Part shown: positions 1,595-47,669 of the stretch, piece by piece
Numbering within the stretch: position 1 is the stretch's first letter
How the letters are laid out: every line of letters begins with the position of its first letter
DNA from: Mycobacterium noviomagense
GTDB lineage: Bacteria; Actinomycetota; Actinomycetes; Mycobacteriales; Mycobacteriaceae
NCBI RefSeq assembly: GCF_010731635.1
Contig: NZ_AP022583.1
Location: 4,402,001-4,466,000 of the forward strand
Direction: 5' to 3'
Length of the DNA stretch: 64,000 nucleotides
The notes under the pieces: generated by a model
Told to the model about the DNA's origin: nothing
Database searches by the model: none
The model's input: the letters and a program-made list of their open reading frames with translations, nothing else
Translations under genes and position numbers: made by a program

Positions 1595-1618
1595 ATGGCG
1601 AGGATGCCACCGTCACCC

Positions 1619-3869: not shown

Positions 3870-3893
3870 CCGACTCGTGGATAACCCGTAGCG

Positions 3894-6076: not shown

Positions 6077-6157
6077 ACTGCGACTCAACCATTGCCGTCG
6101 GCGTTTGTCAGTCGAGGCGACACAACAAGCTGGTATCGGGCTGGGATCATCGCAGGC

Positions 6158-6823: not shown

Positions 6824-6963
6824 TCGGGTGCCGCCCCGCCGGGCGCTGGCACATGGGTCACCCAGGCGGCACCAGCTGGATGGTGTGGACGTTTGAGAAA
6901 GAACACCCACGGTCACACGACTTCTGAGAGACAATGCGCATTGTCGCAGGAGGGGAGTCGCCG

Positions 6964-8313: not shown

Positions 8314-8406
8314 GGGGCTATCTGTCGGCCGCCGCCAAAAAGCGGGTACTGCATCGGCAAGCACAACCGCTCACTTGATGCGCCGCCTCGAGCACTGGAG
8401 TTTGAC

Positions 8407-10566: not shown

Positions 10567-10568
10567 CC

Positions 10569-11447: not shown

Positions 11448-11465
11448 GCGGCGCGCTGCCGGAGG

Positions 11466-12788: not shown

Positions 12789-12956
12789 CAGCGTGTCCCG
12801 ATCGGGAGACGTCGGTGTGGGTGATCAGTGGTTCGGCTCAGCAAGAGACCAGCGATTCTTTCTCGAGCTACCGGGCCCGTCCGAGTCTATGCGCATATCG
12901 CGGTCAGTGAGGGCAGGCCGGTCGCCGATCATTGCCGAACGGGCAACGGGTACCGG

Positions 12957-14474
12957 TCATGCGCTTCCGCACCACGTAGTCAGCGCGTCGCGCAATCCGG
13001 TAGCTGTGCCGCCTCCCACCCACGCGACGTATCCGTCGGGCCGAATCAACACGGCAGCAGGAGCAGTGACCGCGCCAAGTACCGGAAGCTCCCATGCGCC
13101 AGCATATTTGGCATCGATCGACTTGACCCTGCTTGCCCATGGTCCGATATCGAACGAGCCCGGCTCACCGACGTTGAGTAGCACGGGACGGGCCTCGTGC
13201 AGGAGGGTGAATACCCGCATCGGACCGTTGGGTGTGTCCAGGTCGATGTCGGGCATGCGGCGCCCAAGCAGCGGATGGCCGTCACCGAGGTCGTAATGAA
13301 TGTCCAGACCGGACATCATCGCACCGAATCGCCTACGCGGCTCGTCCATGCCGAGAAGCTCAGAAACGGTCTCGCGCAAGGCCTTGGTGCGGTCGTCGTC
13401 CAGACGGAGAAGAAGCGCCATCTGGGCCATCGCGTTGCGCAGGACGCGCGCAGCCACCGGGTGCCGTTCGGCATGGTAGGTATCCACAAGGGTTTCCGGC
13501 GAGGTCTGGTTGACCACCTGGCCCAGCTTCCATCCCAGATTGACCGCATCCTGGACACCGGTGTTGAGGCCCTGGCCGCCCACCGGGTGATGCACGTGTG
13601 CGGCATCGCCGGCCAGCAGGATCCGCCTGTCGCGATAGGCTGCGGCCTGCCGCGCTGCATCGGTGAATCGGGAAATCCAAGCCGGGCTGTGGATTCCGTA
13701 ATCGGTTCCGTATACGGCGATCAGCGCTTCGCTGAGATCCCGCAACATGGGTTCGCTGCTGGAGCCGAGGTGCTGCTCGGTCACCATGACCCGCACCGGG
13801 CCTGCGTCTTCCGGCCTCGAGAGTGCATGGACGCCGAGAGCATCGTGGCGGATGCCCCATTCCGGCTCTGGGCCTCTCTCGAAAGCCATTTCGACCTCGG
13901 CGAGCAGATAGCTGGTGGTCGGATCCCAGCCGGGGAAGTCGATGCCGGCCGCTTTACGAACCAGACTGCGGCCGCCGTCGCAGCCGACGAGATATTTCGT
14001 CCGCATAATATGGCCGTTCGATAGCTCGACGTCGACGCCAGTGTCGTCTTGGGCGAGACCCGTCACCTCACGTCCGCGATAGATCGGCATGGCCAGCTCA
14101 TCGACCCAGCCGGCCAATATGCGCTCGATCTCGTTCTGCCACAGCGCAAGCCCGTAGGGGTGCCGGGTGGGGAAGTCGCTGATGTCCAGACAAATCTGGG
14201 AGAACCCCGCGACCTGTGCTACCTGCCCTTGCGAAATGAACCGCTCTGCAAGTCCCCGTTGATCGAGAACCTCGATGGAACGTGAATGCAGGCCTCCGGC
14301 GCGCGCGCCAATCAGGTCTTGGCTGGCGCGCCGCTCGACAATGGCAACGTCGACTCCGGCCAACGCCAACTCACCTGCCAACATCAGCCCTGTCGGGCCT
14401 CCTCCGGCAATCACCACGGCATGGTCCGATTCGACCTGTCGAGGCGACTCGGCCGGCGCCCATGAACGACCCAC
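12957..14474 (-). CDS. FAD-dependent aromatic hydroxylase (class A, Rox/TetX-like)
   Basis: A flavoprotein monooxygenase that hydroxylates an aromatic or polyketide compound using NAD(P)H and O2. Seen: VIAGGGPTGLMLAGELALAG near the N-terminus (FAD-binding GxGxxG type), the DG motif CDGGRSLVRKAAGIDF, the GD motif LLAGDAAHVHHPVGGQGLNTG, and a C-terminal thioredoxin-like domain ending at IRPDGYVAWVG, as in rifampicin monooxygenase and polyketide hydroxylases. The GTG at 14474 follows GGAGGGG with good spacing; a GTG six codons earlier overlaps that site. It is divergent from sseB. Inactivation of an antibiotic is possible but unproven. Confidence 0.88.
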   Translation of the reverse strand: MGRSWAPAESPRQVESDHAVVIAGGGPTGLMLAGELALAGVDVAIVERRASQDLIGARAGGLHSRSIEVLDQRGLAERFISQGQVAQVAGFSQICLDISDFPTRHPYGLALWQNEIERILAGWVDELAMPIYRGREVTGLAQDDTGVDVELSNGHIMRTKYLVGCDGGRSLVRKAAGIDFPGWDPTTSYLLAEVEMAFERGPEPEWGIRHDALGVHALSRPEDAGPVRVMVTEQHLGSSSEPMLRDLSEALIAVYGTDYGIHSPAWISRFTDAARQAAAYRDRRILLAGDAAHVHHPVGGQGLNTGVQDAVNLGWKLGQVVNQTSPETLVDTYHAERHPVAARVLRNAMAQMALLLRLDDDRTKALRETVSELLGMDEPRRRFGAMMSGLDIHYDLGDGHPLLGRRMPDIDLDTPNGPMRVFTLLHEARPVLLNVGEPGSFDIGPWASRVKSIDAKYAGAWELPVLGAVTAPAAVLIRPDGYVAWVGGGTATGLRDALTTWCGSA

Positions 14475-14607
14475 GTCGAAACCCCCCTCCACTGAGTTTT
14501 AGCTCTGGGCAGCGATTTTGCGGCATGCCCCCGGTCTTGCCGCAAGCCCCCCGGTCCGCTATATGTTGAAGGTGAGGGGAGTATTCACTCGTAAGGATTC
14601 TGAATCG

Positions 14608-15462
14608 GTGAGCACGCGTGCTCAGGTCCTGATCACTGCCGGCGAGTTGGCGCGCCTGATCGAAGCCGACGCTGCGCTGACGATTCTTGACGTGCGTTGG
14701 CGGCTGAACGAGCCCGATGGGCATGCGGCCTACTTACAGGGTCATCTGCCAGGGGCGGTGTATGTCTCGCTGGAAGAAGAGCTCAGCGATCACACGATCT
14801 CTGGGCGGGGACGTCATCCGCTGCCCTCAGGGCCTCGCCTCGAGGCGGCGGCGCGGCGATGGGGCATCCGCCAGGATGTGCCGGTTGTCGTGTATGACGA
14901 TTGGAATCGGGTCGGCTCGTCACGGGCATGGTGGGTGCTGACCGCGGCTGGGTTGCCAGATGTGCGGATTTTGGACGGCGGCCTGGCGGCGTGGCGGTCG
15001 GTCGGCGGCGCTGTCCACACCGGACCTGTCACTCCGCGGCCTGGGAATGTCACTGTGGCGCACAGTGATTTGTATGGCGGAGCCCTGCCCACCTTGACCG
15101 CGCAGCAGGCGGGCTCGGCCGACGTGGCTCTGTTTGATGCAAGGACACCTGAGCGATTTCGTGGCGACACCGAGCCCGTCGACCCGGTCGCCGGTCACAT
15201 TCCCACCGCGAAGAATCTGCCGAGTACCGACGTCCTTACTAGCGACGGGACGTTTCGGACGGATAGTGCGCTGGCCGAACAGCTTTCAGCACATGACTTC
15301 GAGCCTGGGCGTCAGCTGGGCGTCTACTGCGGATCAGGCGTCAGTGCGACCGTTACCGTCGCCGCGCTCGCCACCGTGGGTTATCAGGCAGCGCTGTTTC
15401 CGGGCTCGTGGTCGGAGTGGATTTCCGACCCGGAGCGCGCGATAGCCCGCGGCGACGAATAG
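14608..15462 (+). CDS. sseB: Thiosulfate sulfurtransferase SseB
   Basis: A two-domain rhodanese that transfers sulfane sulfur. Seen: the inactive N-terminal rhodanese domain (LDVRWRLNEPDGHAAYLQGH, YDDWNRVGSSRAWWVLTAAG) and the active C-terminal domain with the catalytic loop CGSGVSATV (Cys near residue 242) and the ending FPGSWSEWISDP. Sequence and length (284 residues from this GTG) agree with M. tuberculosis Rv2291 as I recall it. AAGGA lies 10 bases before the GTG. The open frame extends 30 codons upstream but these are not conserved. It ends one base before the convergent nucleosidase remnant. Confidence 0.93.
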   Translation: MSTRAQVLITAGELARLIEADAALTILDVRWRLNEPDGHAAYLQGHLPGAVYVSLEEELSDHTISGRGRHPLPSGPRLEAAARRWGIRQDVPVVVYDDWNRVGSSRAWWVLTAAGLPDVRILDGGLAAWRSVGGAVHTGPVTPRPGNVTVAHSDLYGGALPTLTAQQAGSADVALFDARTPERFRGDTEPVDPVAGHIPTAKNLPSTDVLTSDGTFRTDSALAEQLSAHDFEPGRQLGVYCGSGVSATVTVAALATVGYQAALFPGSWSEWISDPERAIARGDE

Positions 15463-15463
15463 G

Positions 15464-16047
15464 TCACTGGCGCAACGATGTTGCGAGCCCCCTGATCGCG
15501 GCGTCGGTTGCCCGCTCGATGGCCAGCCTGGACCCTCTGGCGAGGCGGACCAGGCGGGGCAGCGCGCCCGGGCGGCCGATCACGTAGCGGGCGACGGCGG
15601 AGTAGTTCACCCTACCGTCCGGATGGCACAGGCCGACAACGTCGGCGTCCACGGTCGCGTCGGTGGCCCGGTCGCTGATCGCGCGCACCACCGACCACGG
15701 CATGCCGCGCTCGTCGCACACCTTCGCGATCGCGGCCGTCTCCATGTCAAGCGCCACGACGCCTCGCGCCCGCAGCCGCGCGTGTACCGCCGGATCGACA
15801 AGCACGTCATCGGTGGTCCACATCGTTCCGTGGCCGTCGCCGAGCGGGAGTGGCTTCGGCAGGTACTGCGAGCGGTCGGCGCCGTTGACCACCAGCTCAG
15901 GCAACACCAGTGTCCCGATCGGAGTCTCGTCGTCGATAGCGCCGGCGATGCCGACGACAATCACCCGCTCGACGTCGACGGCGTCCAGGAGTCGCACCGT
16001 CGCAGCGGACGAAGCTCCATGGGCATGGCGCAGATGACGGCGATCAC
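15464..16047 (-). pseudogene. Nucleoside phosphorylase/nucleosidase broken by internal deletion
   Basis: The N-terminus is intact from a GTG at 16047 behind GGAGG and reads VIAVICAMPMELRPLRR, the start of this MTA/SAH-nucleosidase-like family. It then changes frame at about 16000 directly into RLLDAVDVERVIVVGIAGAID, which in the family comes about 45 residues later. The joint reads TGCGAC-GG-TGCGAC, so deletion between short direct repeats is likely. The rest is well preserved (VALDMETAAIAKVC, the substrate-binding Glu region, and AISDRATD). The remaining 177-codon frame could start at a GTG at 15997 but lacks the phosphate/ribose loop of the fold. It is the last gene of a five-gene operon. 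Confidence 0.82.
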
Positions 16048-36147: not shown

Positions 36148-36384
36148 ATGAGCACTGTTACCGTGCGCGATCTGCGGAATAAGGGCGGAGAGGTGCTTCG
36201 CCGCGTTGAACACGGCGAACGCATAGTGATTACACGCGATGGCACCGCCGTGGCCGAACTTCGCCCGCTCCCTCGTACGAGGGTCGGCCCGGCTGAACTG
36301 ATTCGTCGGCGCAAGAATCTTCCGCGGGTGAACCCATACGCCCTTCGGCGCGATGTCGACAACCTAATCGATCCGTCGCTATGA
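36148..36384 (+). CDS. vapB: Type II antitoxin VapB (Phd/YefM type)
   Basis: 78 residues. Seen: the DNA-binding N-terminus TVTVRDLRNKGGEVLRRVEHGERIVITRDG (in parts), and AVAELRPLPR in the Phd/YefM fold; the C-terminal tail (RRKNLPRVNPYALRRDVDNLIDPSL, in parts) would wrap the toxin. Its stop overlaps the vapC start by 4 bases (ATGA). The leaderless promoter is described separately. Upstream 16 open codons are not used. Confidence 0.88.
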   Translation: MSTVTVRDLRNKGGEVLRRVEHGERIVITRDGTAVAELRPLPRTRVGPAELIRRRKNLPRVNPYALRRDVDNLIDPSL

Positions 36385-36803
36385 CGGAGGCGCCGCGCGA
36401 GGGAATGCTGGACACCTCTACAGTGATCCTTCTCGGCGAGATCGCCGACCCAACCGAGCTTCCTGACGAAGCGGTGATAAGCGCGATAACACTGGCGGAG
36501 TTGTCTGTGGGTCCACATGTCGCGCACGACGATGCTGAGCGCAGTGCCCGTCAGCATCATCTACAGCAGGCTGAAGCCGACTTCGATGTAGTTCCATTCG
36601 ATGACGATTGCGCGCGGTCGTTTGGCGGCGTCGCCGCAGCGTTGCGCGCATCAGGGCGTAAGCCGGCTGCGCGCGCCTACGATGCGCTCATCGCAGCGAG
36701 TGCGATCGCGCATAAGGTGCCGCTATACACATGCAATCCAGACGACTTCACGGGAATACCGAGGCTGGAAGTCTGCCCGGTTACGAATCCACGTCAGCGA
36801 TAG
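36381..36803 (+). CDS. vapC: PIN-domain toxin VapC
   Basis: A ribonuclease toxin of 140 residues. Seen: the PIN acidic residues in order, D11 in MLDTS, E40 in ITLAEL, D101 in RAYDALIAASA and D121/D122 in CNPDDF, all needed for Mg binding, so it is likely active. It follows vapB by translational coupling. The stop lies 88 bases before the left end of the Tn7-like transposon. Confidence 0.88.
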   Translation: MTEAPREGMLDTSTVILLGEIADPTELPDEAVISAITLAELSVGPHVAHDDAERSARQHHLQQAEADFDVVPFDDDCARSFGGVAAALRASGRKPAARAYDALIAASAIAHKVPLYTCNPDDFTGIPRLEVCPVTNPRQR

Positions 36804-36886: not shown

Positions 36887-36891
36887 GCAGG
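36887..36891. repeat. Left target-site duplication (GCAGG)
   Basis: The five bases GCAGG directly before the TGTCC terminus match exactly the five bases after the right terminus, the 5-bp duplication expected of Tn7-like transposition. Confidence 0.9.
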
Positions 36892-36987
36892 TGTCCAGTC
36901 TCAATCAATCTGACACTGGTGAGCGGGCGTTATGCCAGAAATTTGACGCGGCGCGGACAGTGAAGCGTCTCAATGTAACTGGCACTT
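36892..36987 (+). repeat. Left transposon end with two putative TnsB sites
   Basis: The terminus TGTCC is followed by site 1, GTCTCAATCAATCTGACACT (36898-36917), and site 2, GTCTCAATGTAACTGGCACT (36967-36986), 69 bases apart. They match the three right-end sites in inverted orientation. Confidence 0.8.
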
Positions 36988-37019
36988 CTGTCCAGGGGCT
37001 CGCAATGTCTCCTGTCGTG

Positions 37020-37108
37020 TGTTGACCCCCGGCGGGCGCACCAGCACGCGCGTTTGGTCGGTCATGACCACAGGTGCAGGCACTGGCGACGCCATTCCGA
37101 TCGGCGTA
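37020..37108 (-). pseudogene. Relic of a second, diverged tnsA 5' end
   Basis: Bases 37066-37108 match 46610-46652, the region spanning the start of the intact tnsA, at 39 of 43 positions. The minus-strand reading is MASPVPAPVVMTDQTRVLVRPPG against MEPPVPAPVV...MTDETLVLARLPG, with six codons missing; similarity fades near 37020. Only the N-terminus remains. It shows that a related element once occupied this place or contributed the left part of the present one. The 137 bases from here to the methyltransferase hold nothing I recognise. Confidence 0.75.
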
Positions 37109-37245
37109 GCGCTGCTGGTCGGTGAGCGGTGGAGGCTCCGGCAACATGGTCGTTGACAGCGGCATGTTGGTGGCCGGCGCGGTCGTGTGTCGTTTTCACC
37201 TTGCGGGGCCACGGATTTACCGCACGATGAGACATAATTCCTTCC

Positions 37246-37908
37246 TTAAGCAGATAAGCCAGGGCGTCGGCGCGATAGTTCGAAGCGGCGGATCTGCAGG
37301 CGGCCACTTTGCAGGCCGACTTTGAGCGGGAGCGGGATGCGGGTGTGGCGCTGGATCTCGCTGACGGGCACCACGGCACTGGTCTGCAGTTCCCACGCGG
37401 GGAGGCGGCGGCGCAGATCCTGCTCGGAGATGCCGGCAACGATGCCGGGGATTTTGGTGCAGCCGGCCATGAGGAGCAGTGCCCCGGGGGCCGCGACGCG
37501 GGTGACACCCTCGGCGTAGGCGTCTCGCCGGTTCTTGGCCAGGCCGTAGTAGCAGCCGCTGTCGTTGATCAGCGTGTAGCCGTCGCCGACGCTCAGGTCA
37601 TCGAGTCGGGTCACATCACCTTGGAGGAATCGTGCGTTCGCTGCGTCGCCGATCGCTCGGGATCGCGCGATGTCGATGGCGCGGCCGATCACGTCGATGC
37701 CTAACGCGTCCCAGCCTTGGCGGGCAAGGTAAACAGTGTTGCGTCCCGCCCCGCAGCCGAGGTCAAGCGCGCGGCCCGGTGGGAGTCGGTGTTGGCCTTC
37801 GATGTGCTCCACCAGCCATCGGTCTGGGACGTCGGAGGCCATCAGCGACTCGTTCGATCCGATGCGGGACAACGCCTGATATACAAGGCGCAAGACGTCA
37901 CGGTTCAT
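37246..37908 (-). CDS. Class I SAM-dependent methyltransferase (cargo)
   Basis: 220 residues. Seen: SAM-binding motif ALDLGCGAGRNTVYLARQGW, acidic GIDVIGRAIDIAR, GDVTRL and a LINDSGCYYGL segment in the place of motif IV. Proteins starting NRDVLRLVYQALSRIGSNESLMASDVPDRWLVEH (in parts) are common in mycobacteria as small methyltransferases of unknown substrate. It is the last gene of the transposon cargo operon on this strand, 65 bases after the alpha/beta hydrolase. Confidence 0.85.
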   Translation of the reverse strand: MNRDVLRLVYQALSRIGSNESLMASDVPDRWLVEHIEGQHRLPPGRALDLGCGAGRNTVYLARQGWDALGIDVIGRAIDIARSRAIGDAANARFLQGDVTRLDDLSVGDGYTLINDSGCYYGLAKNRRDAYAEGVTRVAAPGALLLMAGCTKIPGIVAGISEQDLRRRLPAWELQTSAVVPVSEIQRHTRIPLPLKVGLQSGRLQIRRFELSRRRPGLSA

Positions 37909-37973
37909 ACGTGATCCCTTCTGGTGTCGACGGTTGCGGTGTCCGAGCTATTACGTATCGCCTGGGGGCGTGC

Positions 37974-38759
37974 TCACCGGAGTTGCGGTTCGCCCGTCGC
38001 TGGTTCCAGCAGAAGCCGCGCGACCTCGTGCGGCATGGTGATCATGGCGCGGTGCGTGGTGGGTAGTCGGCGGTGGCGCCAGTTTGGGCCGCGAGGCGGT
38101 CGCAGCCTGGGGTGCAATGCGGAGCGGAAGCCGGTCATCAGCAGCTGGCCGACTAAGGTCCCGCCGGTGCAAACGATGTAGGTCCGCGGGATGCTGCTCA
38201 TCAGGTCAGGGTGGGTCATATGGATGGGTTCCTCGAACATCCTCAACGGTGCTCCAGTTACGTTCTGGTCGGCCGGATCCTCGTGGTGGCCTTCAAAAAA
38301 GCCGATGACGCGGCTCACGATCTTGCCGAGATGGGGTAGCCACGCCCCGGCCGGTAACCACCATCCGTCTCCGTGGGCCACGGCTTGCTTGCGCATCCTG
38401 TTGACGAGGCGGGGGATGATATCGGCGACGGCTTCGCCATCGTGCGGCGCCATCGCGTCGAGATAGATCAGGTGGGCGATCCGGTCAGGGATTTCTCCGG
38501 CTATGGCGGTGATAACCATGCCGCCGTAGCTGTGACCGACAAGGATGACGTCTCGAAGATCGTTGGTGTGGAATAGCTCGATGACATCTTGCACCTGTGC
38601 GTACAGGCCGGTCTCGGAGCTGGCGAGATGAGCCCGCTCGCCGATGCCCAACAGTGTGGGTGTATAGACGCGATGGCCGACCTGACGCAATAGGGTCGCG
38701 ACGGGAATCCATCTGCGACCGCTGTCAAATCCGCCGTGGACGAGCACATAGGTTGCCAC
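37974..38759 (-). CDS. Alpha/beta hydrolase (cargo)
   Basis: A 261-residue hydrolase of the small esterase group related to methylesterases and salicylate-type esterases. Seen: MATYVLVHGGFDSGRRW with the oxyanion HG, TPTLLGIGERAHL, nucleophile VGHSYGGMVI and a His in LPTTHRAMITMP. The acidic residue is probably in the CTGG region near residue 200, where the usual sequence is altered (YIVCTGGTLVGQLLMTGF), so the catalytic triad needs checking. It belongs to the transposon cargo operon. Confidence 0.82.
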   Translation of the reverse strand: MATYVLVHGGFDSGRRWIPVATLLRQVGHRVYTPTLLGIGERAHLASSETGLYAQVQDVIELFHTNDLRDVILVGHSYGGMVITAIAGEIPDRIAHLIYLDAMAPHDGEAVADIIPRLVNRMRKQAVAHGDGWWLPAGAWLPHLGKIVSRVIGFFEGHHEDPADQNVTGAPLRMFEEPIHMTHPDLMSSIPRTYIVCTGGTLVGQLLMTGFRSALHPRLRPPRGPNWRHRRLPTTHRAMITMPHEVARLLLEPATGEPQLR

Positions 38760-38808
38760 CCTGGTTACCCTCGCTTTCTGTCACATGGCCGATCGGCGGC
38801 AGTGCGAT

Positions 38809-39038
38809 TTACGCGCACGACTCGGGCAGATTCACGCCAGCAGTGTCGAGATCCTCTTGGATGTCGTGGATGGTGATCGAGAAGACTTTTCCGCCCGTGG
38901 CGGCACGGTCGAGGAGGTGGAAAAAGCAGATATGCCGAAAACCTTGCTCGCGCTGGGTGTACGGCACATCTCTTCTTCCAGCATCGCGAGCATGTCACGA
39001 ATATCCGCCGGGTAGACTGGGCAGCGCGACTTCACCAT
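38809..39038 (-). pseudogene. Small frameshifted cargo gene
   Basis: From ATG 39038 the reading is MVKSRCPVYPADIRDMLAML, EEEMCR. The frame then must shift (near 38965) to continue YTQREQGFRHICFFHLLD, RAATGGKVFSITIHDIQ, EDLDTAGVNLPESCA and stop at 38809. The span, 230 bases, is 76 codons plus 2, so one base is missing. Both parts are clearly protein-like and uninterrupted otherwise. The unshifted frame instead ends in Ser/Thr-rich non-protein sequence. I do not recognise the family. It lies between the hydrolase and the solute-binding-like gene, in the only gap of more than 300 bases in the operon. Confidence 0.65.
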
Positions 39039-39108
39039 TCTGGCATACAGCTTCAAACTGACTCCTCCCGTATTGCATTGCGCCCGTGGTTGATTGGCGG
39101 GCGCACAG

Positions 39109-40026
39109 CTAGCACTCGATGAGTTGAGCCGCGGTAATTCTGTCCTGTTCGGCCGTATGTTCGGCCCAGCACGCATAGTGGATATCAAGTTTGCGCTGGA
39201 CATAGCGCTCATCAATCACCATGTCGAAGCCGTTGAACACGTAGTGTCCATCGGGGTCGATACCCGGCAGACGGGTGATCATCGCTCTGACCGCTGCCTG
39301 GGCGTCGTCTGGGTGGCTGTTCACATACGTGGTGCCCTGTTTTAGGGCCGTGCGGAATGCCGACACGGTAGCGGGGTTCTTTTGCGCGTAGTCGCGCGTG
39401 GTCCACACTGCGCTCTGCGGCTGATCCTGCCAGCCCCAACGCTCGTCAAAGAGATTGATCAACACCCTCGCGTTTAACTGAAGTCGAAACGTCGTGCAAT
39501 AGGGGTCGGGAAGGCAAATCGCATCCGCCTGCTTGCTTGCCAATGCCGATCCGAGCGAAAAGATTGGTATCGGCAGGAACTCAACGCGGCTGCGGTCGAC
39601 TTTCAGCTGACCGAGGATGTCCCACACCAACTCATGGGCGGTTGACCCCAGACCGGGCACACCGATGCGCACATCGATGAGATCATTGGGCTCCCTAAAG
39701 TTTGAGTCGGGTAGGACAAGCAAATTGCACCAGCCCGAGCGGGCGACCGCGAACCCTGTCACAGCCAGGAGCTTGACTCGTTTCTGCTGTACGGTCTCCG
39801 CTGCCGTTGACCATCCGGCCACGAGGAAGTCAGCTTGGCCATCCAGCAGGGGAGACATGTCGTTGGCATCGGTGTAGGGCTGCAGAACGACCCGATCGAA
39901 ACCGGCTTGATCGAAGTACCCTTGCTCAAGAGCCCATCGGGCCGGTAGCGCTCCCGGCGGCTGATTTCCGGCATCATTCGTCCTCCAATGCGCGGCGCGG
40001 CATCGAGCGATCCAGGCCGGCCGCAC
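39109..40026 (-). CDS. Solute-binding-like protein without signal peptide (cargo)
   Basis: Resembles NMT1/SsuA/TauA-type substrate-binding proteins: ALEQGYFDQAGFDRVVLQPY, MSPLLDGQADFLVAGWST, IGVPGLGSTAHELVWDIL and ADAICLPDPYCTTFRL. The first ~25 residues are not a signal peptide and the first beta strand of the fold seems missing, so it is probably cytoplasmic or degenerate. No permease or ATPase is next to it. The GTG start overlaps the preceding stop by one base (TAGTG), so the gene is translated by coupling. It could serve as a soluble ligand binder. Confidence 0.75.
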   Translation of the reverse strand: MRPAWIARCRAAHWRTNDAGNQPPGALPARWALEQGYFDQAGFDRVVLQPYTDANDMSPLLDGQADFLVAGWSTAAETVQQKRVKLLAVTGFAVARSGWCNLLVLPDSNFREPNDLIDVRIGVPGLGSTAHELVWDILGQLKVDRSRVEFLPIPIFSLGSALASKQADAICLPDPYCTTFRLQLNARVLINLFDERWGWQDQPQSAVWTTRDYAQKNPATVSAFRTALKQGTTYVNSHPDDAQAAVRAMITRLPGIDPDGHYVFNGFDMVIDERYVQRKLDIHYACWAEHTAEQDRITAAQLIEC

Positions 40027-41228
40027 TAGGACCGCGCCCTCCAGCCAACCTTGGCCAGGGTGCTCCCGAGTCGGCGAGCGTCTTCGGACAGCCGCGACCT
40101 GACAACGTGGGTGACCAGCCGGCCCACACGGACTTGCACCAGCTTTGACAGCGCGTCACGCTCCGCCGCTGTGGTGCGGTCGGCCACCGCCGCGTGAATG
40201 TGCTCGGTGGCCGTTGCCGCTAGCTCATTGATCAGCGCGTCGCGATCGACATGCCGCTCTTCTGCCATGTCGGTGAGGCTCTCGCCGGCGAAGTAGCGCT
40301 GACGAATCTCCTTGACACTCAGCCCGATGATCTCGCTGGCCCGCCGGGCCACCGCGCCCACGGCGGCCGGTGCTGCAGACGGGTCGCGGGGGACTCTCTG
40401 CGGCTGGTAGTCCGCGGGGAACCAGGTGGCCGCGTTCCCGTCGACCAGGCGGGAAATCCGCCCTGCCAGCAGAGTCTGCAACGCCGGGATTTCCTCGGCC
40501 GTTAACCGGCCCACAGCCACAACATCTTTCAGCGGCTCGATCAAGACACTGACTATGGTGCTGACGAGCACAGAGCGGTCCACCCCCTGACTGGCAGCGA
40601 TTTGGACGGGGCTTTCGCCTGCGTACAGTCGCTGTCGGATCTGCTCTGTGGTCAGCCCGAGAACCTCGGTTACACGATCGATCACCGCCGTGAGCTTGGC
40701 AGGGATGCCCATGTGATGGTCCATAATGTGGTCCACCCGCGCCGATAGCAATATCGCTAGTGCATCGCGTTGCTCGTCGCTGATGGCGGCGGAATCGACA
40801 GACTGATCGAGGGTTTTGATCGTCACATCGGTCATCTCGCGCACCAGACGATCCCGCCCTATCTCCCCGCCGAAACGGCTGGCGATATCGGCCCAACTGT
40901 CACCCGCGAAGGCCTGGGCGATGATCTCCGGACGCTCTGAACCCATCACCTCGCTGCTTTGGCGCCAAACGTTTCCCCGCAACCCGCTGTCAGCTCCACC
41001 GTGGGGCACACCCATCATCATGGCCACGGCCCCCGAGATGACGTTGAGTGCCCGGCCCAGCACCAGACGCTTCCCAGCCTCCGGCACCAGGTTGCCCTGT
41101 GCGTCGTAGAGCCCGCGATCGCGCGCCTCGCGACGAAGCGCCAAAGCTTGACTTTCCGTTAACGTGCCGGCCCCCACCAGGCTGTCGAAGACATCGTCCT
41201 GCCGGTCTTGCGCGTCGGTATCAACCAT
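40026..41228 (-). CDS. Three-repeat helical protein (cargo), function unknown
   Basis: About 400 residues made of three similar units of ~100 residues. Each has an HTH-like part (I-Q-AGDSWADIA-R-G; LTTEQIRQRLYAGESPVQIA; LSVKEIRQRYFAGESLTDMA), followed by a helix and an L--GRI--LV-type segment (ALAILLSARVDHIM, ALQTLLAGRISRLV, ALSKLVQVRVGRLV). A GLYDAQGNLVPEAGKRL stretch precedes them. Such units recur in actinobacterial proteins of unknown role, often exported ones; here there is no signal peptide. It is the first gene of the cargo operon and is divergent from marR, so the MarR operator controls it. The ATG at 41228 is preferred to 41255. Confidence 0.75.
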   Translation of the reverse strand: MVDTDAQDRQDDVFDSLVGAGTLTESQALALRREARDRGLYDAQGNLVPEAGKRLVLGRALNVISGAVAMMMGVPHGGADSGLRGNVWRQSSEVMGSERPEIIAQAFAGDSWADIASRFGGEIGRDRLVREMTDVTIKTLDQSVDSAAISDEQRDALAILLSARVDHIMDHHMGIPAKLTAVIDRVTEVLGLTTEQIRQRLYAGESPVQIAASQGVDRSVLVSTIVSVLIEPLKDVVAVGRLTAEEIPALQTLLAGRISRLVDGNAATWFPADYQPQRVPRDPSAAPAAVGAVARRASEIIGLSVKEIRQRYFAGESLTDMAEERHVDRDALINELAATATEHIHAAVADRTTAAERDALSKLVQVRVGRLVTHVVRSRLSEDARRLGSTLAKVGWRARS

Positions 41229-41281
41229 TCGTACCTGCCAACTTCCACGAACCATCGACGAACTTGTCGCCCAGGCGATGC

Positions 41282-41304
41282 TTAGTTTAGCAAAAACAAA
41301 CTAA
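41282..41304. promoter_or_regulatory. Putative MarR operator between divergent cargo genes
   Basis: A perfect inverted repeat TTAGTTT-N9-AAACTAA lies 18-40 bases before the marR start and 54 after the other gene's start, in an AT-rich stretch unlike its surroundings. This size and AT character fit MarR-family operators. It would control marR and the leftward cargo operon together. Confidence 0.65.
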
Positions 41305-41321
41305 AACGCTAGACTCTTTCC

Positions 41322-41840
41322 GTGGGAGATATTGGCCTGAGAGCCCCGACGGAAGCCGCCACGGCGCAGCAGCCTGGGCAGCCAGCACCGCTTGCGCCTG
41401 GCTCCGACCTCGATCAGCAGATCCGCGTACTACTGGGCTTTTTCATCCGTTTCTCTACCACCCGCCGTCGAGACCACGTTCAACTCCCAGGCAGCCCGAA
41501 CGACTTCGCGCGCCTCACTGCCCGCCACCTGAGCGCCGCCGCTCAGTTGTTCCTTCGGGGTCCGCTCACCGTCGGCGAGCTTGCCGAGCAGCTTGACGTG
41601 ACCTATGCGACCGCCAGCCTCGTGGCAACCGATCTCGAGCGGGCTGGCGCGATCGAGCGTGAACGAGACCCAGCCGACGGCCGACGCGTGGTCCTGCGCC
41701 TCCATCCCACCATTGGTATCAACGCCATGAAGCAGCGGATCGAGCCGATGCGCCGCACGCTGGAGCAACTCGACGAGGCCGAGCGCAACACATTCGTGAA
41801 GGCGATGAGTATCTTCATCGAGGAGTTAGAGAGACGCTAA
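41322..41840 (+). CDS. MarR-family transcriptional regulator (cargo)
   Basis: 172 residues from a GTG. Seen: a helical dimer N-terminus, winged helix with LTVGELAEQLDVTYATASLVATDLERAGAIERERDPADGRRVVLRL (recognition helix TYATASLVATDLERAG, wing DPADGRRV), and C-terminal RRTLEQLDEAERNTFVKAM. MarR proteins usually repress until a small, often phenolic, ligand binds. It is divergent from the three-repeat gene and convergent with tniQ. Confidence 0.88.
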   Translation: MGDIGLRAPTEAATAQQPGQPAPLAPGSDLDQQIRVLLGFFIRFSTTRRRDHVQLPGSPNDFARLTARHLSAAAQLFLRGPLTVGELAEQLDVTYATASLVATDLERAGAIERERDPADGRRVVLRLHPTIGINAMKQRIEPMRRTLEQLDEAERNTFVKAMSIFIEELERR

Positions 41841-41934
41841 AACGCTGAGTTCGAGCAATTCGTTATGGAAACCCGCAGCGCCGTACAGATCCGCTTGCTG
41901 TTGGTGGTCACGTCGCGATCACCTCATCGGACCG

Positions 41935-42831
41935 TTAAGCGAGGCCACCGTTCCAGGACTTTGCGCGGCGGGGTAGAACGGATTCACCTGCCGATCGGTA
42001 GCGAGCGGGCAGCGACGAGTACCGCAGTAGCTTGAATTGAGTATCGTCCGGTATACGGTCATGAGAGGCGGCTCGTCGCAGTTCGTTGGTCAAGGTGCGA
42101 ACGACCGCCCAGATTCTCTCAACCCCTCGCCAGAGGTCTGATCGGTCGTCGACGCGCAGTGCGGCTGCGAACTGGGCAGTGACGTGTGCATAACGGACAG
42201 GCGTGGCAAGGCTCGGATTGCACGCAGTGTCGAGAAATTGTGTGCTGGTGAGCATCTGAGCAATCGCGACTTGCTCCCGATAGGCAAGTGCCTCGATTGC
42301 AGGGATTCCAGTTGTGGTCCGTCGCCGTTCGAGTTCATCACCGCCCAGCGCCACGACCGCCGTCTCCAGACCGATCATCATGGCCGTGCAGTCAAATACG
42401 AGTCCCCTGCTTCGGAACAGAGCACGGAACCGTCGTTCAGCGCTTAACGCGGGACGGTAGTCCCGAATATCCAATTGAGGCTGTCCAACCCAGCGACGGT
42501 GGCGCAGGCAAACCATACCTGTGCCAGGAATTCTGCCCACAGCGACTTCTCCGCGGGTGCAGTGTAGACATAGGTTTCGTTCGTGGATCACGTTGTCTTC
42601 CAGCGTGGTAGGAGCGCAAAATGCATCAGCCCGTAGTAATCCAAGTTGCCGCCAGGCCTCTGGTCGGCCATGGGCAGAACGCGCCCTCGATTTCAGGTCG
42701 CCGCTATCCACTAATGCCGTCTCGACTGCTTTCACGGTCGTGTGGTTTTGCACCGATGCACGGTGTGCGAAGGAGTCGACAGTTTCCCCGGCGTAGATCT
42801 TCGTCCGGATCGGCAGTGGCTTGAGCTTCAT
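41935..42831 (-). CDS. tniQ: TniQ/TnsD-family target-site protein
   Basis: 298 residues, short for TnsD but normal for TniQ. Seen: the N-terminal KLKPLPIRTKIYAGETVDSFAHRAS and the zinc finger CLHC...CLRHRRW (C88, C91, C108, H111). The rest is helical and carries a second region (RRFRALFRSRGLVFDCTAMM). TniQ-family proteins choose the target site and pass it to TnsC. It starts by overlapping the tnsC stop (ATGA). The open frame before this ATG overlaps tnsC and is not used. Its DNA target is unknown; the insertion is 88 bases after vapC. Confidence 0.85.
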   Translation of the reverse strand: MKLKPLPIRTKIYAGETVDSFAHRASVQNHTTVKAVETALVDSGDLKSRARSAHGRPEAWRQLGLLRADAFCAPTTLEDNVIHERNLCLHCTRGEVAVGRIPGTGMVCLRHRRWVGQPQLDIRDYRPALSAERRFRALFRSRGLVFDCTAMMIGLETAVVALGGDELERRRTTTGIPAIEALAYREQVAIAQMLTSTQFLDTACNPSLATPVRYAHVTAQFAAALRVDDRSDLWRGVERIWAVVRTLTNELRRAASHDRIPDDTQFKLLRYSSLPARYRSAGESVLPRRAKSWNGGLA

Positions 42832-43862
42832 CCCGCCTGCTTGAGTCGCTTGGGCTTTCGCGGGCGTGGCGGCGCTGCGGCGTGGTGCTCGTCCGCCGCC
42901 CGGTCGGTCTTGATCGAGTCGAGCAGTGTGCGGTCGATCTTCTCGGACCCTTCCTGGATCGCGGCAATAGCGGCGTCGCTGAGTAGTGCGCGCAGAGAGC
43001 CGATACTGCCGCCGGTGCGGTCGTAGAGGTAGGTGGCGTGCTGCTCCAGTGAGCCCTCGCGATGCTTGGCCAACGGTAGGAGGCTCTCCAGGCCGAGTAC
43101 TAACTCCACCCAATCGTCACGATGGGCCTGGGTGCCATAGCAGTATGGTGACATCTCATGAACGATCATGCGGGCCTTGATTTGACGGCCCATGTGCCCC
43201 GCGAAGAGATCGCTCGTGAGCAGGTCGATGCCCGCATAGATGAAAGTCGCATCCAATCTCTCGCCGAAGACCTTGAGGGCTGAGGCGGCTTCGGCACCGA
43301 TGCTGCTGTTGGTCTTCAGGTTGTGCACTTCATCGACGATCACCAGTGTTGTTCCGAGGTCGCGGAGCACCGCGACGACTTGTTCGGTGATGTCCTGGGC
43401 GGTGTTCTTGCTGCGCATAACCAGACCGAGCCAGTTGGCGAAGGCCAGCATCATCATCTTGGGTGTGGTTCCGGGTGGAACGACCGCATACACGACTGGT
43501 GCGTAGTTGGCGTCATTGCGGCCTGTTTTGGTTCGCATGAATTTCTCGTGGCGCTTGCCGATCAGAAGCGCGGCGGTGCTCTTTCCCAGTCCTGCAGCGC
43601 CGCTCAGCGCAAGGCCTCGCCTAGCGGTGGCGGTTTGTGCGGCGTTGCGTGCCAAAATTATTCGCGTTTGCCGCTCCAGGGCCTTGGTGTCCGCGGTTTC
43701 CAGTACGACGTCGGCGGCCAGCCATGCGATTCGCTGTTGGTCATAGTCCAATTTGGCATCGGGGGAGAGGGAGGCGAGTTCTTCGGGGATGAGCAGGTCA
43801 GGTGTCGTCGGCCGGTGGCCAACGAATTCGCGCCAGGCGCTCAACGAGTCAGGTACAGCCAT
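42828..43862 (-). CDS. tnsC: Transposition AAA+ ATPase TnsC
   Basis: 344 residues. Seen: Walker A GAAGLGKST (88-96), Walker B LVIVDEVHNL (D177, E178), and sensor-type FIYAGIDLL, as in TnsC/TniB. TnsC assembles on target DNA and connects TniQ to the TnsAB transposase. The basic tail (PPRPRKPKRLKQ) may contact DNA or TnsA. It starts 3 bases after the tnsB stop and overlaps tniQ. Confidence 0.9.
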   Translation of the reverse strand: MAVPDSLSAWREFVGHRPTTPDLLIPEELASLSPDAKLDYDQQRIAWLAADVVLETADTKALERQTRIILARNAAQTATARRGLALSGAAGLGKSTAALLIGKRHEKFMRTKTGRNDANYAPVVYAVVPPGTTPKMMMLAFANWLGLVMRSKNTAQDITEQVVAVLRDLGTTLVIVDEVHNLKTNSSIGAEAASALKVFGERLDATFIYAGIDLLTSDLFAGHMGRQIKARMIVHEMSPYCYGTQAHRDDWVELVLGLESLLPLAKHREGSLEQHATYLYDRTGGSIGSLRALLSDAAIAAIQEGSEKIDRTLLDSIKTDRAADEHHAAAPPRPRKPKRLKQAG

Positions 43863-43865
43863 CGG

Positions 43866-45869
43866 TTACTCCTCGTCGATTCGTCGCGCGGCCTTGATCT
43901 GGCGTGATGGTTTGATCGGTGCCGCGGTTTCTATGGGTCCGCATTCGGCGGATGGGGTCGGGTCAGGTTCGGGGACGACGGGGATCGTGCTCGCGTTGCG
44001 CCGGGCGGCGGTGCGCTCGCGGGTGGATACCGCTCCGCCGGTCTGGATGCGGTTGATTTCGGCCAGAACGTCGACGCCTGCCCCGCCACTTCCGCGTTTG
44101 GCAGCAGCGCTTCTGGCGGCGTTGAGCACATCAAGGGAGAATGGTGCGAGGGCCTGTTTGGCCATCGTCCATTCGGCGTGGATCCACCGGCCTCGTTTAT
44201 GGTCGCGGATGAAGATCTCGTTCATTCGGTAGGGGTCGAATCGGATCTCCCAACGACCTCGGGCGGGTTCGGGGAGTCCGCTGCTAACGCCCCGGTATTC
44301 GTGCAGGCCGGACGAATCGTAGTGCAGGCCAGCGAAATTGACTCCGTATGGCTGGATCGACCTCCAGTCGATGGGCAGCAGCCCTATGTAGTCGTCGGTT
44401 GTGAGCGCGACGTTCACCGCGGGGGCGATTCCTGACAGCGCTGCGTAGGCCTCGTTGGGTGTCAATTCCTTGCGGGGCATGGCAGGGTGGCGCAGTCCGC
44501 TGTGTGGGCGGTTTTGCCAGACGCTCACGATCCACAGGTCGAGGAGGTTCTGTACCTCGGCCAGCGTCCACTGCGCGTCGACGCCGGGATCGGTCCCGCG
44601 ACGGACGACGTTTGGTCCAACGTAGCCCGCGAGATACTGGGTGAAGCCGCTGTTGATAGCAGCGAAGGCTCGCTCGATGTGCGGTTTGTCGGTCGGAGTT
44701 CGGGGAGCCGCTTTGATGATACTGATCTGAAGTCGTTCGCATGCGCTCAGAAATGTTGAGCCGACAAACACCTTGCCGCGATCGATCGTGATGCTGTCAG
44801 GAACGATGACGGGTTTCGCCGCGATTCTTGCCTTCACCGCGTCGTCTCCATCGATCATTCCCTGGGGGAGAATGCTTCTGGAAAAGGCAAGGGAGGCAGC
44901 CCAGCCGGGCTGCATCGGTATTGGGGTCAAGGCTCGTGCGAGCAGCACGGCGGCATCGACTGCCTTGGTCGCGACCGGCCGAAGGATCGCCGCCAGCGCA
45001 GTGCGGGTCGCGATGTCAAGCGCCATCGTGAGGTCGACCCGTCCCGTTGAGCCGTCCGGGTTAACTACCATCAGGTCCAGTGGAGTGGAATCGATCTCGA
45101 CCAGCTCCCCTGGTCTGGACGGGGCCTGGCGTCCCCAGCTCCTGGCAGGTCTGTTCGCCTGGGTTCTGCGTGTCGTCGCATTGCCGAAGGGATGTCGGTT
45201 GCGCTCGAGCGCGGACAGGGCTCGGTACATGGTGGCGCGTGAGGGGAGCGGTATCTCTTGCTTGGTCGCCTCGATCCTCACCTGGTTGATGACGCGATCG
45301 CGGGTGCCGGTGCTCAGATCGGTCTGGCCGGCTATCGCAGTCTCCAAGAGGGCGATGATCCGCTGATCGGTCCGCCCGGCCACGGTGCGTTGTCTTGTCC
45401 TGCGACGGTCGATAAGTCCCGCTAACCCATTCCGGCGGTAGGCGGACAGGTATCGCTTCAGGCTTCTCTCGCCGATGGGAGTTCCGGCTTGTCTGAGTTC
45501 GTTAAGTTTTGCTTCGATGCGGTCCGCCAATCGGTTCGTGGGGTCATACTCCGGTCGGGGTTTTACGATCGTCGTTCCGTCGTTCGGCGGGACACCGGTA
45601 AGTACCTCCACGACGTGCCGGTGCAGGAACTCAACTCGGGTGCGTGTTTCCGCGTCCAGCGTTTCGATAACGGCGACGTTATCGAGGCTGGGCAACCGGT
45701 CAGGGTTGTCTGGTAGGTACGACTCGTCGCCGAGCAGATCAGGTAGGGGTATCTTGCGGATCCTGTTCGTGGCCAGGCTCTTTAACGCGATGGTGGTGCC
45801 GTCCTGTGCCATGACCTGCCACGAACCACCGTCATACTCGATGAAGTCGAACAGCCGAACTGATCTCAT
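43866..45869 (-). CDS. tnsB: DDE transposase TnsB
   Basis: 667 residues from an ATG overlapping the tnsA stop (ATGA). Seen: an N-terminal DNA-binding region with HTH (RSLKRYLSAYRRNGLAGLIDRR), then the RNaseH-like catalytic core with D260 (ELVEIDSTPLDL), D363 (SITIDRGKVFVGS) and E399 (DKPHIERAF), the last two 36 apart, a Mu/Tn552-like C-terminal beta barrel and a Pro-rich tail that in Tn7 binds TnsC. It recognises the end repeats and cuts the 3' strands. All catalytic residues are present, so it is likely active. Confidence 0.92.
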   Translation of the reverse strand: MRSVRLFDFIEYDGGSWQVMAQDGTTIALKSLATNRIRKIPLPDLLGDESYLPDNPDRLPSLDNVAVIETLDAETRTRVEFLHRHVVEVLTGVPPNDGTTIVKPRPEYDPTNRLADRIEAKLNELRQAGTPIGERSLKRYLSAYRRNGLAGLIDRRRTRQRTVAGRTDQRIIALLETAIAGQTDLSTGTRDRVINQVRIEATKQEIPLPSRATMYRALSALERNRHPFGNATTRRTQANRPARSWGRQAPSRPGELVEIDSTPLDLMVVNPDGSTGRVDLTMALDIATRTALAAILRPVATKAVDAAVLLARALTPIPMQPGWAASLAFSRSILPQGMIDGDDAVKARIAAKPVIVPDSITIDRGKVFVGSTFLSACERLQISIIKAAPRTPTDKPHIERAFAAINSGFTQYLAGYVGPNVVRRGTDPGVDAQWTLAEVQNLLDLWIVSVWQNRPHSGLRHPAMPRKELTPNEAYAALSGIAPAVNVALTTDDYIGLLPIDWRSIQPYGVNFAGLHYDSSGLHEYRGVSSGLPEPARGRWEIRFDPYRMNEIFIRDHKRGRWIHAEWTMAKQALAPFSLDVLNAARSAAAKRGSGGAGVDVLAEINRIQTGGAVSTRERTAARRNASTIPVVPEPDPTPSAECGPIETAAPIKPSRQIKAARRIDEE

Positions 45870-46639
45870 GCCGAGACCTCCGTTTCCATGCGCAGTGAGA
45901 CGGACAAGTCGGCATGTAGAAGCCTCCTCCACATCAGGTGATAGATGTTCGCCAAGGCCGCTGGTTCAGTTGAGCCGAGCGCTTTCGCCGCTCGGCTCAC
46001 ACCAACCCCAAGCGGAGTGGGCTCCCCGAACACATCGACGATATGTGTGATCACGCTGTCTGGGGGCGAGAAGCGGTCGTGACGGTAGCCGGATAACCAG
46101 CGCACGTTCCGGCGGTGCGGCGTATCGATGCCTGTGAAAATCTCGTACTCCCAGCCGATCTCACTGCATGTATCCCGTGTCAACGCGAACTGCTTCGCAG
46201 AGTTAGCAACCGCGCCAGGATGCTTGACGTCGACCACTCGGCCGTCCCCGCTGGCCAGCCGGAGAAAGAAGTCAGGGACGTGGTACTTCGAACCCTTAGT
46301 CGTTCGCGGCCACAGAAGGGCGAAAGGCTGCGCCGAGATCGCCACCACTTCCGCGTCGAAGTCGGCGATCATCAGCGCATCTCGCTCCAGTAATGACTCG
46401 AACTCTATTTGCGTGCGCGTGGTTGAGCTCCACCAGCGACCTTCATAGTTGCGCTTACCCTTCCAGGAGTAGAAGCGGCGGATCGGCAGGGCGGATTCGA
46501 GTCGCATTGCGGCGAGATCGTCAGCCACACGATGGTTAACGACGCGCCGTGCGCCCGGCAGCCGTGCCAGGACGAGCGTTTCATCGGTCATGTTCCTGGG
46601 CAGCTGTTCGACCACAGGTGCGGGCACTGGCGGCTCCAT
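45866..46639 (-). CDS. tnsA: PDDEXK transposase subunit TnsA
   Basis: 257 residues. Seen: the nuclease core with E85 (ESLLERDALMIADFD), D123 (HVPDFFLRL) and D137-x-K139 (RVVDVKHPG), the equivalents of E63, D114 and Q130/K132 of Tn7 TnsA; and a C-terminal winged region. TnsA cuts the 5' strands, so the element should move by cut-and-paste. It is the first gene of the operon; its promoter lies among the right-end repeats, which would let TnsB repress it, as known in Tn7. Confidence 0.9.
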   Translation of the reverse strand: MEPPVPAPVVEQLPRNMTDETLVLARLPGARRVVNHRVADDLAAMRLESALPIRRFYSWKGKRNYEGRWWSSTTRTQIEFESLLERDALMIADFDAEVVAISAQPFALLWPRTTKGSKYHVPDFFLRLASGDGRVVDVKHPGAVANSAKQFALTRDTCSEIGWEYEIFTGIDTPHRRNVRWLSGYRHDRFSPPDSVITHIVDVFGEPTPLGVGVSRAAKALGSTEPAALANIYHLMWRRLLHADLSVSLRMETEVSA

Positions 46640-46722
46640 TCCGATCGGTGTACCGCCAACTTCTCACGAGCGACCGACAAGTCTGATCCGCTGGCGACGC
46701 GCGTGCGGTCGCGACCGGTCAC

Positions 46723-46808
46723 CAATGCCAACTTGAATGAGATCCCGCGACGATTCCGTAAGGTGCCAGATCGACTGCGAAAAGTGCCAACTGCACTGAG
46801 ACCGGACA
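46723..46808 (-). repeat. Right transposon end with three putative TnsB sites
   Basis: On the plus strand three related sites lie at 46723-46743, 46760-46780 and 46782-46802, cores AATGCCAACTTGAATGAGAT, AAGGTGCCAGATCGACTGCG and AAGTGCCAACTGCACTGAGA. The last two are 22 bases apart. The terminus GGACA ends at 46808. Confidence 0.8.
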
Positions 46809-46813
46809 GCAGG
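46809..46813. repeat. Right target-site duplication (GCAGG)
   Basis: Identical to the five bases before the left terminus. The 421 bases from here to the end of the second vapC gene are AT-richer at first and hold no gene I can support. Confidence 0.9.
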
Positions 46814-47234
46814 CGAGGACCGGGCTGACTCATCCGATGAAAACGGCGAGTTTTTTACTTAACATAATGTGGCTTATCGGTACAGAACGCATGCGGGTTG
46901 CATTGGATGAAAGTGCTCGACCAGGCCTCTGAGGTTCATGCCGATTGAATCACCGATGCCCAATGCGCCAGGCGCCGACCGGTTGCGCATTCCTAATGTC
47001 TAGCTGGGCAGCAACCGGGCCTGCAGCTGAGTTGACTGCGCGCCACTGGCGGAACTTCCGGTGAATGAGCCCCGACGACGCGCTTCCACCATGCCACGCC
47101 CTTCCCGCCGGGCCAAGTCAATTCGTCACCGTGACGAAATCGACTGGCGCGTTGCGTTATTCATTGGCCAGTTCCTGCAATCAGAATCAGCTGGAGTGAG
47201 CTTGGTCAGTTGACGTAATCGAAGTAATCGCCAA

Positions 47235-47669
47235 TTACCGTGAAACGGGCGACAGCAGCTCATAGTTGACGTCGAGCAACCGATACGTCGGCTCAGCCCG
47301 TCGGTCGCATGTGATGAGCATCAGCTTGTGCTTGCGAGCAGCCGCACCGACGAGACCGTCGTAAACTGCGCCGCCGGCCAAGGCCACTTCGGCAAACTCC
47401 CGTAACAGGCGCTTTGTATCCGTTGCGGACAGGAAGCGAGACTCCGGAAAATTCCTCTCCTCCAAGCGAAGTGCCGCAACCGGAGTAAGTCGGTGCGGCG
47501 GCGGCAGTCGCGTCAGCACCGACAGCAGCTCGACCGCGGCATGCCCTGACAACCCCCGGCGGCACACTAGGAGCCTGGCCTTGGCGGCTCGGTGAAATGG
47601 GTTCTCACGCTGCACCAGTGCAAGTGCAGCGCTGGTGTCGACCAGCACATGTTCAACGCTGGTCGGCAA
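47235..47669 (-). CDS. vapC: PIN-domain toxin VapC (second module)
   Basis: 144 residues. Seen: D11 (LVDTSAALA), E47 (AVELLSVL), D104 (AVYDGLVGAAA) and D122 (TCDRRA), the PIN metal-binding set, so it is probably active. It starts 17 bases inside the end of its antitoxin gene. It belongs to a different VapC subgroup from the module at 36,381 and pairs with an AbrB-type antitoxin. Confidence 0.87.
   Translation of the reverse strand: MPTSVEHVLVDTSAALALVQRENPFHRAAKARLLVCRRGLSGHAAVELLSVLTRLPPPHRLTPVAALRLEERNFPESRFLSATDTKRLLREFAEVALAGGAVYDGLVGAAARKHKLMLITCDRRAEPTYRLLDVNYELLSPVSR

Follow-up and report, generated by a model that had tools for sequence, protein, structure and literature searches.

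A Tn7-like transposon of Mycobacterium noviomagense that probably uses the dif site of its host as attachment site

A complete Tn7-like transposon in a mycobacterial chromosome raises the question of what directs the element to the place where it is found. The DNA analysed here (the window) is a stretch of 64,000 bp of Mycobacterium noviomagense, positions 4402001-4466000 of a one-contig genome of 4.78 Mb; the element occupies positions 36892-46808 in the numbering of the window, which is used throughout. At 49 bp outside its right (tnsA-proximal) end lies dif, the site of chromosome dimer resolution by XerC and XerD, which a preliminary description of this DNA had overlooked and which we regard as the main feature of the locus. 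Our conclusion, held with a probability of roughly 0.87, is that this is a Tn7-like cut-and-paste transposon using the host dif as its attachment site, with the right end placed about 40-51 bp away and dif left intact. Spacing, orientation, ends, a unique dif and empty sites can, as far as sequences tell, be read from the genomes directly, and TniQ is the presumed target selector.

The element starts with TGTCC at 36892 and finishes with GGACA at 46808, and comparison of the flanks gave a target-site duplication, GCAGG, with its left copy at 36887-36891 and its right copy at 46809-46813, all exactly as the preliminary description had placed them. The left terminus (TGTCCAGTCTCAATCAATCTGACACTG, 36892-36918, forward strand) includes the first of the 21-bp TnsB-type repeats (36898-36918), and a second one follows at 36967-36987 (forward strand). 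The right terminus, whose reverse complement reads TGTCCGGTCTCAGTGCAGTTGGCACTT, spans 46782-46808 (reverse strand), with a second repeat at 46761-46781 and a third at 46723-46743 (both reverse strand). Counted from the ends, the repeats begin at positions 7 and 76 on the left and at positions 7, 28 and 66 on the right; the related repeats that had been claimed for both ends are present, those at 28 and 66 of the right end scoring merely 14/21 and 15/21. The whole window contains four pairs of TGTCC and GGACA at a spacing of 3-30 kb whose 5-bp flanks match; the similarity of their termini is 20 of 30 bases for the pair 36892-46808 versus 7-10 of 30 for the other three, so that the single flanked pair with similar ends is the element itself. 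In its TGT...ACA ends, several TnsB sites and 5-bp duplication it agrees with Tn7-like elements. Just inside the left end, a relic in direct orientation (37028-37112, forward strand) resembles the 5' end of tnsA and the interior of the right end, matching parts of 46554-46656 (89% over 47 bp and 79% over 39 bp), which suggests past recombination with a related right end.

The dif site came to light in a comparison of right flanks, as a sequence about 50 bp out that the element and its relatives share. A pattern match places it at 46857-46884 on the forward strand (ACTTAACATAATGTGGCTTATCGGTACA), with the XerD arm (the TTATGTTAAAT side, the arms being named after Harmer et al., PMC10132070) facing the element, and the spacer between the right end and the 23-bp dif core measures 49 bp (46809-46857). 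With up to three mismatches allowed, the 23-bp pattern matched once in the 4.78-Mb genome (G000; G and L numbers are our handles for genomes and loci), and the same pattern read backwards, as a control, gave no match. The dnaA gene is found at 1.849 Mb; the two arcs of the circle between it and dif measure 2.60 and 2.18 Mb, the two being roughly opposite each other, and the reverse complement of the window dif is identical in 21 of 28 bases to the dif of Frankia given by Kono et al. (PMC3025954). An XerD gene of the host exceeds the cut-off of its family model, at 348 bits, and another gene, with 275 bits, is XerC-like. Further genomes of the genus, picked for having TnsB matches, showed the dif pattern in 16 of 16 and 76 of 80 cases. 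A near-palindrome, ATTCATC...GATGAA, was observed within 60 bp of dif in the XerD-arm flank in 13 of 45 flanks scanned (e.g. L099, L100 and L116), and the window carries a variant of it (ACTCATCCGATGAA).

If dif is an attachment site, its relation to the right end ought to recur. Nine elements found in mycobacterial genomes, that of the window included, have an uninterrupted tnsB and a TnsB at least 60% identical. In 9/9 the right end points toward a dif or dif-like site from the XerD-arm side at 40-51 bp, the distance to the 23-bp core being 49 bp in the window, 40 in G155, 48 and 51 in G277, 46 in G002, 49 in G087, 48 in G113, 42 in G756 and 47 in G169. The last element occupies a contig of its own (1-15896), and its linkage to dif was deduced from the right end that it shares with a separate contig, which starts with the identical sequence and bears dif. 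Of the two copies in G277, each has its own dif-like site, and these sites are 3.7 Mb apart; at least one copy is thus away from the chromosomal dif. G082, with a fragmented tnsB, shows an end of weak score (16/24) 49 bp from dif and appears as a disrupted tenth member. Duplications of 5 bp were seen on both sides in six of the nine elements (the window, both G277 copies, G002, G087 and G113), and the insertions are independent because all six duplications differ when read in element orientation. The end motifs were derived from these elements, so matches with a score of 24 are self-matches; a decoy scan returned zero matches of at least 19/24 in 1.05 Mb of strand. The similar distance in related elements makes dif appear as a landing beacon. 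In two of 20 further genomes (L123 in G281 and L131 in G292), solo right ends of the same type (A-type) were also noticed, 41 and 39 bp away from dif; both genomes are without a close TnsB match, and we suspect that these ends are probably the scars of lost elements.

An empty site, which the preliminary description had proposed to look for, was sought by joining the flanks. The left flank encodes a Phd/YefM-type antitoxin (36148-36384, forward strand) and a PIN-domain toxin, here called vapC (36381-36803, forward strand), and orthologues of vapC were found in many relatives. Of 19 vapC loci inspected (L078-L096), nine have dif in the 1.5 kb beyond vapC, 43-87 bp past the end of the vapC match in six and about 300-500 bp in three. 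The other ten show no dif in the 1.5-kb stretch; G002 is among them, its element being in between, and G002 and the window are alike in having the element between vapC and dif. When the joined flanks of G002 were compared with the uninterrupted locus of G197, 155 of 184 bases were identical and the alignment was unbroken at the junction. Relatives thus have the junction of toxin gene and dif without an insert, at base level for the related G002 element. The Phd/YefM-PIN pair recurs beside dif in mycobacteria (L080, L082, L083, L085, L087-L089, L091 and L092), and the window has a second PIN gene at 47235-47669.

The rarity of such elements in Mycobacterium, suggested in the preliminary description, was not supported: of 297 genomes searched in the genus, 105 have a TnsB-like match at E<=1e-10, the weaker matches not necessarily representing complete Tn7-like elements. 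In a large protein set, 1108 of 7996 scored candidates matched at E<=1e-10, and the 120 matches listed from it include mycobacteria, Arthrobacter and Corynebacterium. Close relatives (TnsB at least 60%) are few: eight of the 297 genomes have them, at 11 places, and a search of 396 genomes of the genus added G756. A class-wide search of 394 genomes at E<=1e-150 yielded G420 alone besides the window, a search of 186 genomes of the family of G420 at E<=1e-100 no other relative, and a scan of genome contigs merely four relatives in Streptomyces (31-34% identity). As a distance control, 139 of 147 TnsB places were compared with the positions of dif, eight short or weak places being omitted. At a TnsB identity of at least 60%, 9 of 11 places are on the contig that carries dif, nine within 12 kb and seven within 2 kb of it, with a distance of 913-930 bp between tnsB and dif in these seven. 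At 40-47% the figures are 23 of 36 on the dif contig, 12 within 2 kb and 18 within 12 kb; at 33.9-40%, 22 of 40, with eight within 5 kb and 11 within 12 kb. A single place at 52% (G086) is 3.4 Mb from dif, and below 33.9% 16 of 51 places share a contig with dif, one within 12 kb and the other 15 at least 278 kb away. The association with dif is therefore a property of particular clades, and TnsB genes as a whole do not show it.

Some of these other clades were examined at dif itself. For a second end type (TGTCCGATCCGG), near which the elements have a TnsB of about 35% identity, a scan reaching 1 kb from dif at 60 loci gave 14 ends scoring at least 19/24. In thirteen cases the end is on the XerC-arm side, 48-56 bp away from dif (G139, G037, G171, G019, G034, G152, G203, G272, G176, G020, G040, and also G156 and G214, whose scores were lower, at 19 and 20), and the fourteenth (G086) is 405 bp away; G141 and G123 (TnsB 36-37%, 45 and 59 kb from dif) have no second-type end at dif. 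G086, G171 and G203 have a third type (TGTCGGATGACAACC) on the side of the XerD arm, 39-53 bp from dif, and a fourth (TGTCGTTTTGCAG) occurs on the XerC-arm side at 52 and 55 bp (G078 and G266) and at about 60 bp (G195). Different Tn7-like end types may flank one and the same dif (L057 in G086, L061 in G171 and L065 in G203), both ends being within about 55 bp of it in G171 and G203 and at 53 and 405 bp in G086. Beyond the mycobacteria, the Arthrobacter conjugative plasmid pJ349-116 carries a 4,826-bp element consisting solely of tnsA, tnsB, tnsC and a TniQ-like open reading frame (ORF), 40 bp from a dif-like site (three mismatches) and flanked by the duplication ACTGC at either end. The genome G420 belongs to another family and has a TnsB of 49% identity; its dif is situated upstream of tnsB and 40 bp from a putative right end, a left end with a matching duplication was not seen within the 20 kb examined, and G420 was not counted as a member. 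Two copies of an element from the clade with a TnsB of about 43%, situated about 180 kb apart in G101 (L034/L035), have exchanged flanks (CTATC/TCTCG and TCTCG/CTATC), as after recombination between the copies.

Could the adjacency to dif have arisen without targeting? That the element is a Tn7-like one of the usual kind, lacking any chromosomal attachment site and lying next to dif by coincidence, is a reading for which nothing speaks beyond the single locus, and the recurrence of the spacing in 9/9 close relatives with uninterrupted tnsB leaves it a negligible probability. That the dif region is a tolerant hotspot in which insertions merely survive would fit the accumulation of several Tn7-like clades there, one of them without fixed spacing, but it is very improbable in view of the 40-51 bp and the single orientation in all nine elements, of the dif-like sites used by both copies of G277, and of the location of distant TnsB clades of the same genus elsewhere. 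Both readings were rejected on the distance control, the spacing, the decoy scan and the information content of the sites. Across the nine sites aligned on dif the latter amounts to 1.68 bits per base in dif versus 0.37 and 0.49 in the flanks, a difference that is partly there by construction because the dif pattern was written after the first right flanks had been seen. Nor is it at all likely that the element recognises another neighbour of dif such as the toxin-antitoxin pair or the ATTCATC/GATGAA motif: both do recur beside dif, the motif in the 13 of 45 flanks mentioned, but both G277 copies, G087 and G113 sit at sites that have neither within 60 bp, the plasmid pJ349-116 serves as a target too, and the flanks are not conserved over the nine sites.

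The partly built-in information score is one of several observations that weigh against dif as the attachment site. The spacing varies over 12 bp across the clade, and that of Tn7 at glmS is tighter. Left ends were not found by the duplication search in G155 and G756 (nor in the disrupted G082). In the clade of about 43%, 12 of 23 places are within 2 kb of dif with an unfixed spacing of 172-897 bp, and one member (G296) lies 176 bp from dif on the other side; because the spacing varies, fixed homing cannot be claimed for this clade. The element of pJ349-116 is on the XerC-arm side instead of the XerD-arm side, and on pHiyo8-1 the right end of a broken relative does not adjoin a dif, the nearest dif-like site being about 3.9 kb away. 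The structure of TniQ adds to these points: an AlphaFold2 model from 14 sequences was poor (mean predicted local distance difference test score, pLDDT, 60.5), and Foldseek returned 43 matches at E<=10, none of them at E<=0.001, so the prediction was not used as evidence; a TniQ profile search of the PDB gave nothing at E<=0.1.

What in the element could find dif? Its core genes run on the reverse strand, away from the right end, in the order tnsA-tnsB-tnsC-tniQ. The endonuclease gene tnsA (45866-46639) is identified by NF033179 (TnsA_like_Actin; 229.6 bits, cut-off 110), by a match to PF08722 and by its motifs. The DDE transposase gene tnsB (43866-45869, 667 amino acids) matches PF09299 and, in the PDB, the TnsB of Tn6677 (E=3e-14), has the D, D and E motifs and is single-copy in this genome; its ORF is readable from 45932, and the start is probably at 45869 because the database copy of tnsB has 667 amino acids. 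The product of tnsC (42828-43862) is an AAA+ ATPase of the TniB type (PF05621, E=3e-15; Walker A GAAGLGKS, Walker B LVIVDE). The tniQ gene was corrected from an ORF of 392 amino acids to 41935-42831 and encodes a short protein of 298 amino acids with a zinc-finger motif, the proposed target selector or adaptor. Against PF06527 this single protein matches weakly (E=0.0052, 17.9 bits, under the cut-off of 27), and it is placed in the TniQ/TnsD family with its relatives, 13 of 14 aligned members having a PF06527 match at E<=1 (best 8.9e-6) and one being labelled PF06527. The D/D/E motif of TnsB, the E/D/K-like motif of TnsA and the Walker motifs of TnsC, which we take to contain the catalytic residues, were all found; family models and motifs thus bear out a complete Tn7-like transposon with intact core genes. 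The activity that the preliminary description considered apparent would be compatible with the sequence, transposition presumably being of the cut-and-paste kind.

In the mechanism that we propose, a target complex of TniQ and TnsC would be brought to dif, and the transposase would then insert the element about 40-51 bp off, with the right end facing dif and dif itself left intact. When ORFs of at least 100 amino acids were compared in nine elements (the plasmid-borne one included, G155 and G756 in part only), tnsA, tnsB, tnsC, tniQ and one antisense ORF were common to all, so no separate selector gene of at least that size is shared. With tnsABC and a short tniQ as the only shared set, TniQ either reads dif or borrows the host XerC/XerD bound there. 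That TniQ reads the DNA of dif directly, XerC and XerD having no role, is a serious though not quite probable alternative: TnsD of Tn7 binds its attachment site directly, and dif is the conserved sequence at the insertion sites. However, TniQ is short (298 amino acids, and 267-323 in four TniQ-like zinc-finger ORFs from four of seven loci of other clades), and the clades on either arm side fit a protein complex on dif as well as they fit DNA. Faure et al. (PMC10293859) report many loci in which TniQ is too short for target selection and has no partner, and for these they propose selectors in trans; they also describe TnsF, a degenerate Xer-like recombinase that works with a short TniQ. Given such loci and the TnsF precedent, host XerC/XerD bound at dif are attractive as a selector in trans, the short TniQ docking on the Xer-dif complex and recruiting TnsC. 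We tentatively favour the bound Xer protein as the route of TniQ to dif, at somewhat below even odds.

The cargo lies between the left end and tniQ. On the reverse strand it comprises genes for an S-adenosylmethionine-dependent methyltransferase (37246-37908, from domain scans), an alpha/beta hydrolase (37974-38759, from Pfam), an NMT1/SsuA-like substrate-binding protein (39109-40026) and a 409-amino-acid protein with no Pfam, NCBIfam or PADLOC match (40026-41255); a MarR-type regulator is encoded on the forward strand (41322-41840). The cargo had been described as a MarR-regulated metabolic operon: the divergent MarR gene and the four cargo genes are there, but the metabolic reading is weak, the binding protein being alone, with no permease or ATPase partner among the ORFs scanned. 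A defence system was considered and rejected, PADLOC having given a match to a methyltransferase domain (mad2) and weak regulator matches, those of the MarR protein to Csa3/CARF models. The resemblance of the methyltransferase to the mad2 methyltransferase region (E=8e-19) probably reflects a common fold only. Pfam detected no Cas effector domain in ten ORFs scanned; a search for CRISPR arrays was not run.

How does the element compare with known systems? With Tn7 and Tn7-like elements it shares tnsABC with tniQ, TGT/ACA ends, several TnsB sites, the 5-bp duplication and insertion next to a chromosomal site that is conserved and toward which the right end points, as does that of Tn7 at its attachment site. 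Unlike Tn7, its attachment site would be dif, a non-coding recombination site, its TniQ is short and no second selector is common to the clade. The 'res site hunters' Tn5053/Tn402 also bear TniQ and home on a recombinase site, which is occupied by their own resolvase; Tn5053 is not known to have a TnsA and brings its own resolvase gene, tniR. The window element differs from them in having TnsA and in targeting the host dif, and does not belong to this group; no resolvase domain was found in ten window ORFs scanned at E<=0.001. The 'dif site hunters' of the IS1202 family, e.g. ISAjo2, target dif and plasmid dif sites in a fixed orientation and likewise have a TnsB-like transposase, TGT/ACA ends and a 5-bp duplication (PMC10132070). 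They are described there as insertion sequences of 1.5 kb that encode a single transposase and lie 5 bp away from the XerC arm, whereas the window element has TnsA, TnsC, TniQ and cargo and lies 49 bp away on the XerD-arm side, outside that family. Tn6022, which combines TniQ with TnsF at comM, resembles it in its short TniQ, and there the Xer-like tyrosine recombinase TnsF is the selector (PMC10293859); unlike in Tn6022, no tnsF-like gene is common to the elements studied here as far as ORFs of at least 100 amino acids are concerned, and any Xer protein involved would be that of the host. Tn7706 of Rhodococcus is another actinobacterial Tn7-like element, with tnsA, tnsB, tniB and tniQ; as described it is known from contigs and plasmids, dif being unmentioned in that description (PMC12915292), on which the comparison is made. 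The attachment sites given for TnsD/TniQ are glmS, tRNA genes and parE (PMC11406308) and comM (PMC10293859). We found no dif-homing Tn7-like transposon described in the open-access literature, and a report elsewhere is possible.

Homing on dif would make a recombination site, instead of a gene, a new class of attachment site, and would offer a concrete target for Tn7-like elements with a TniQ thought too short to act alone, a point left open by Faure et al. (PMC10293859). It would also explain the build-up of Tn7-like elements at dif in mycobacteria and link the host Xer recombinases with the Xer-like selector TnsF. If Xer proteins do act in trans, the arrangement would correspond to the stage predicted to come first when selectors such as TnsF evolved from Xer proteins; it would keep the right end beside a site carried by most circular bacterial chromosomes and extend the reach of the element to dif-like sites on plasmids, by which it could spread. 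A TnsABC-TniQ set directed to dif could, finally, serve as an insertion tool.

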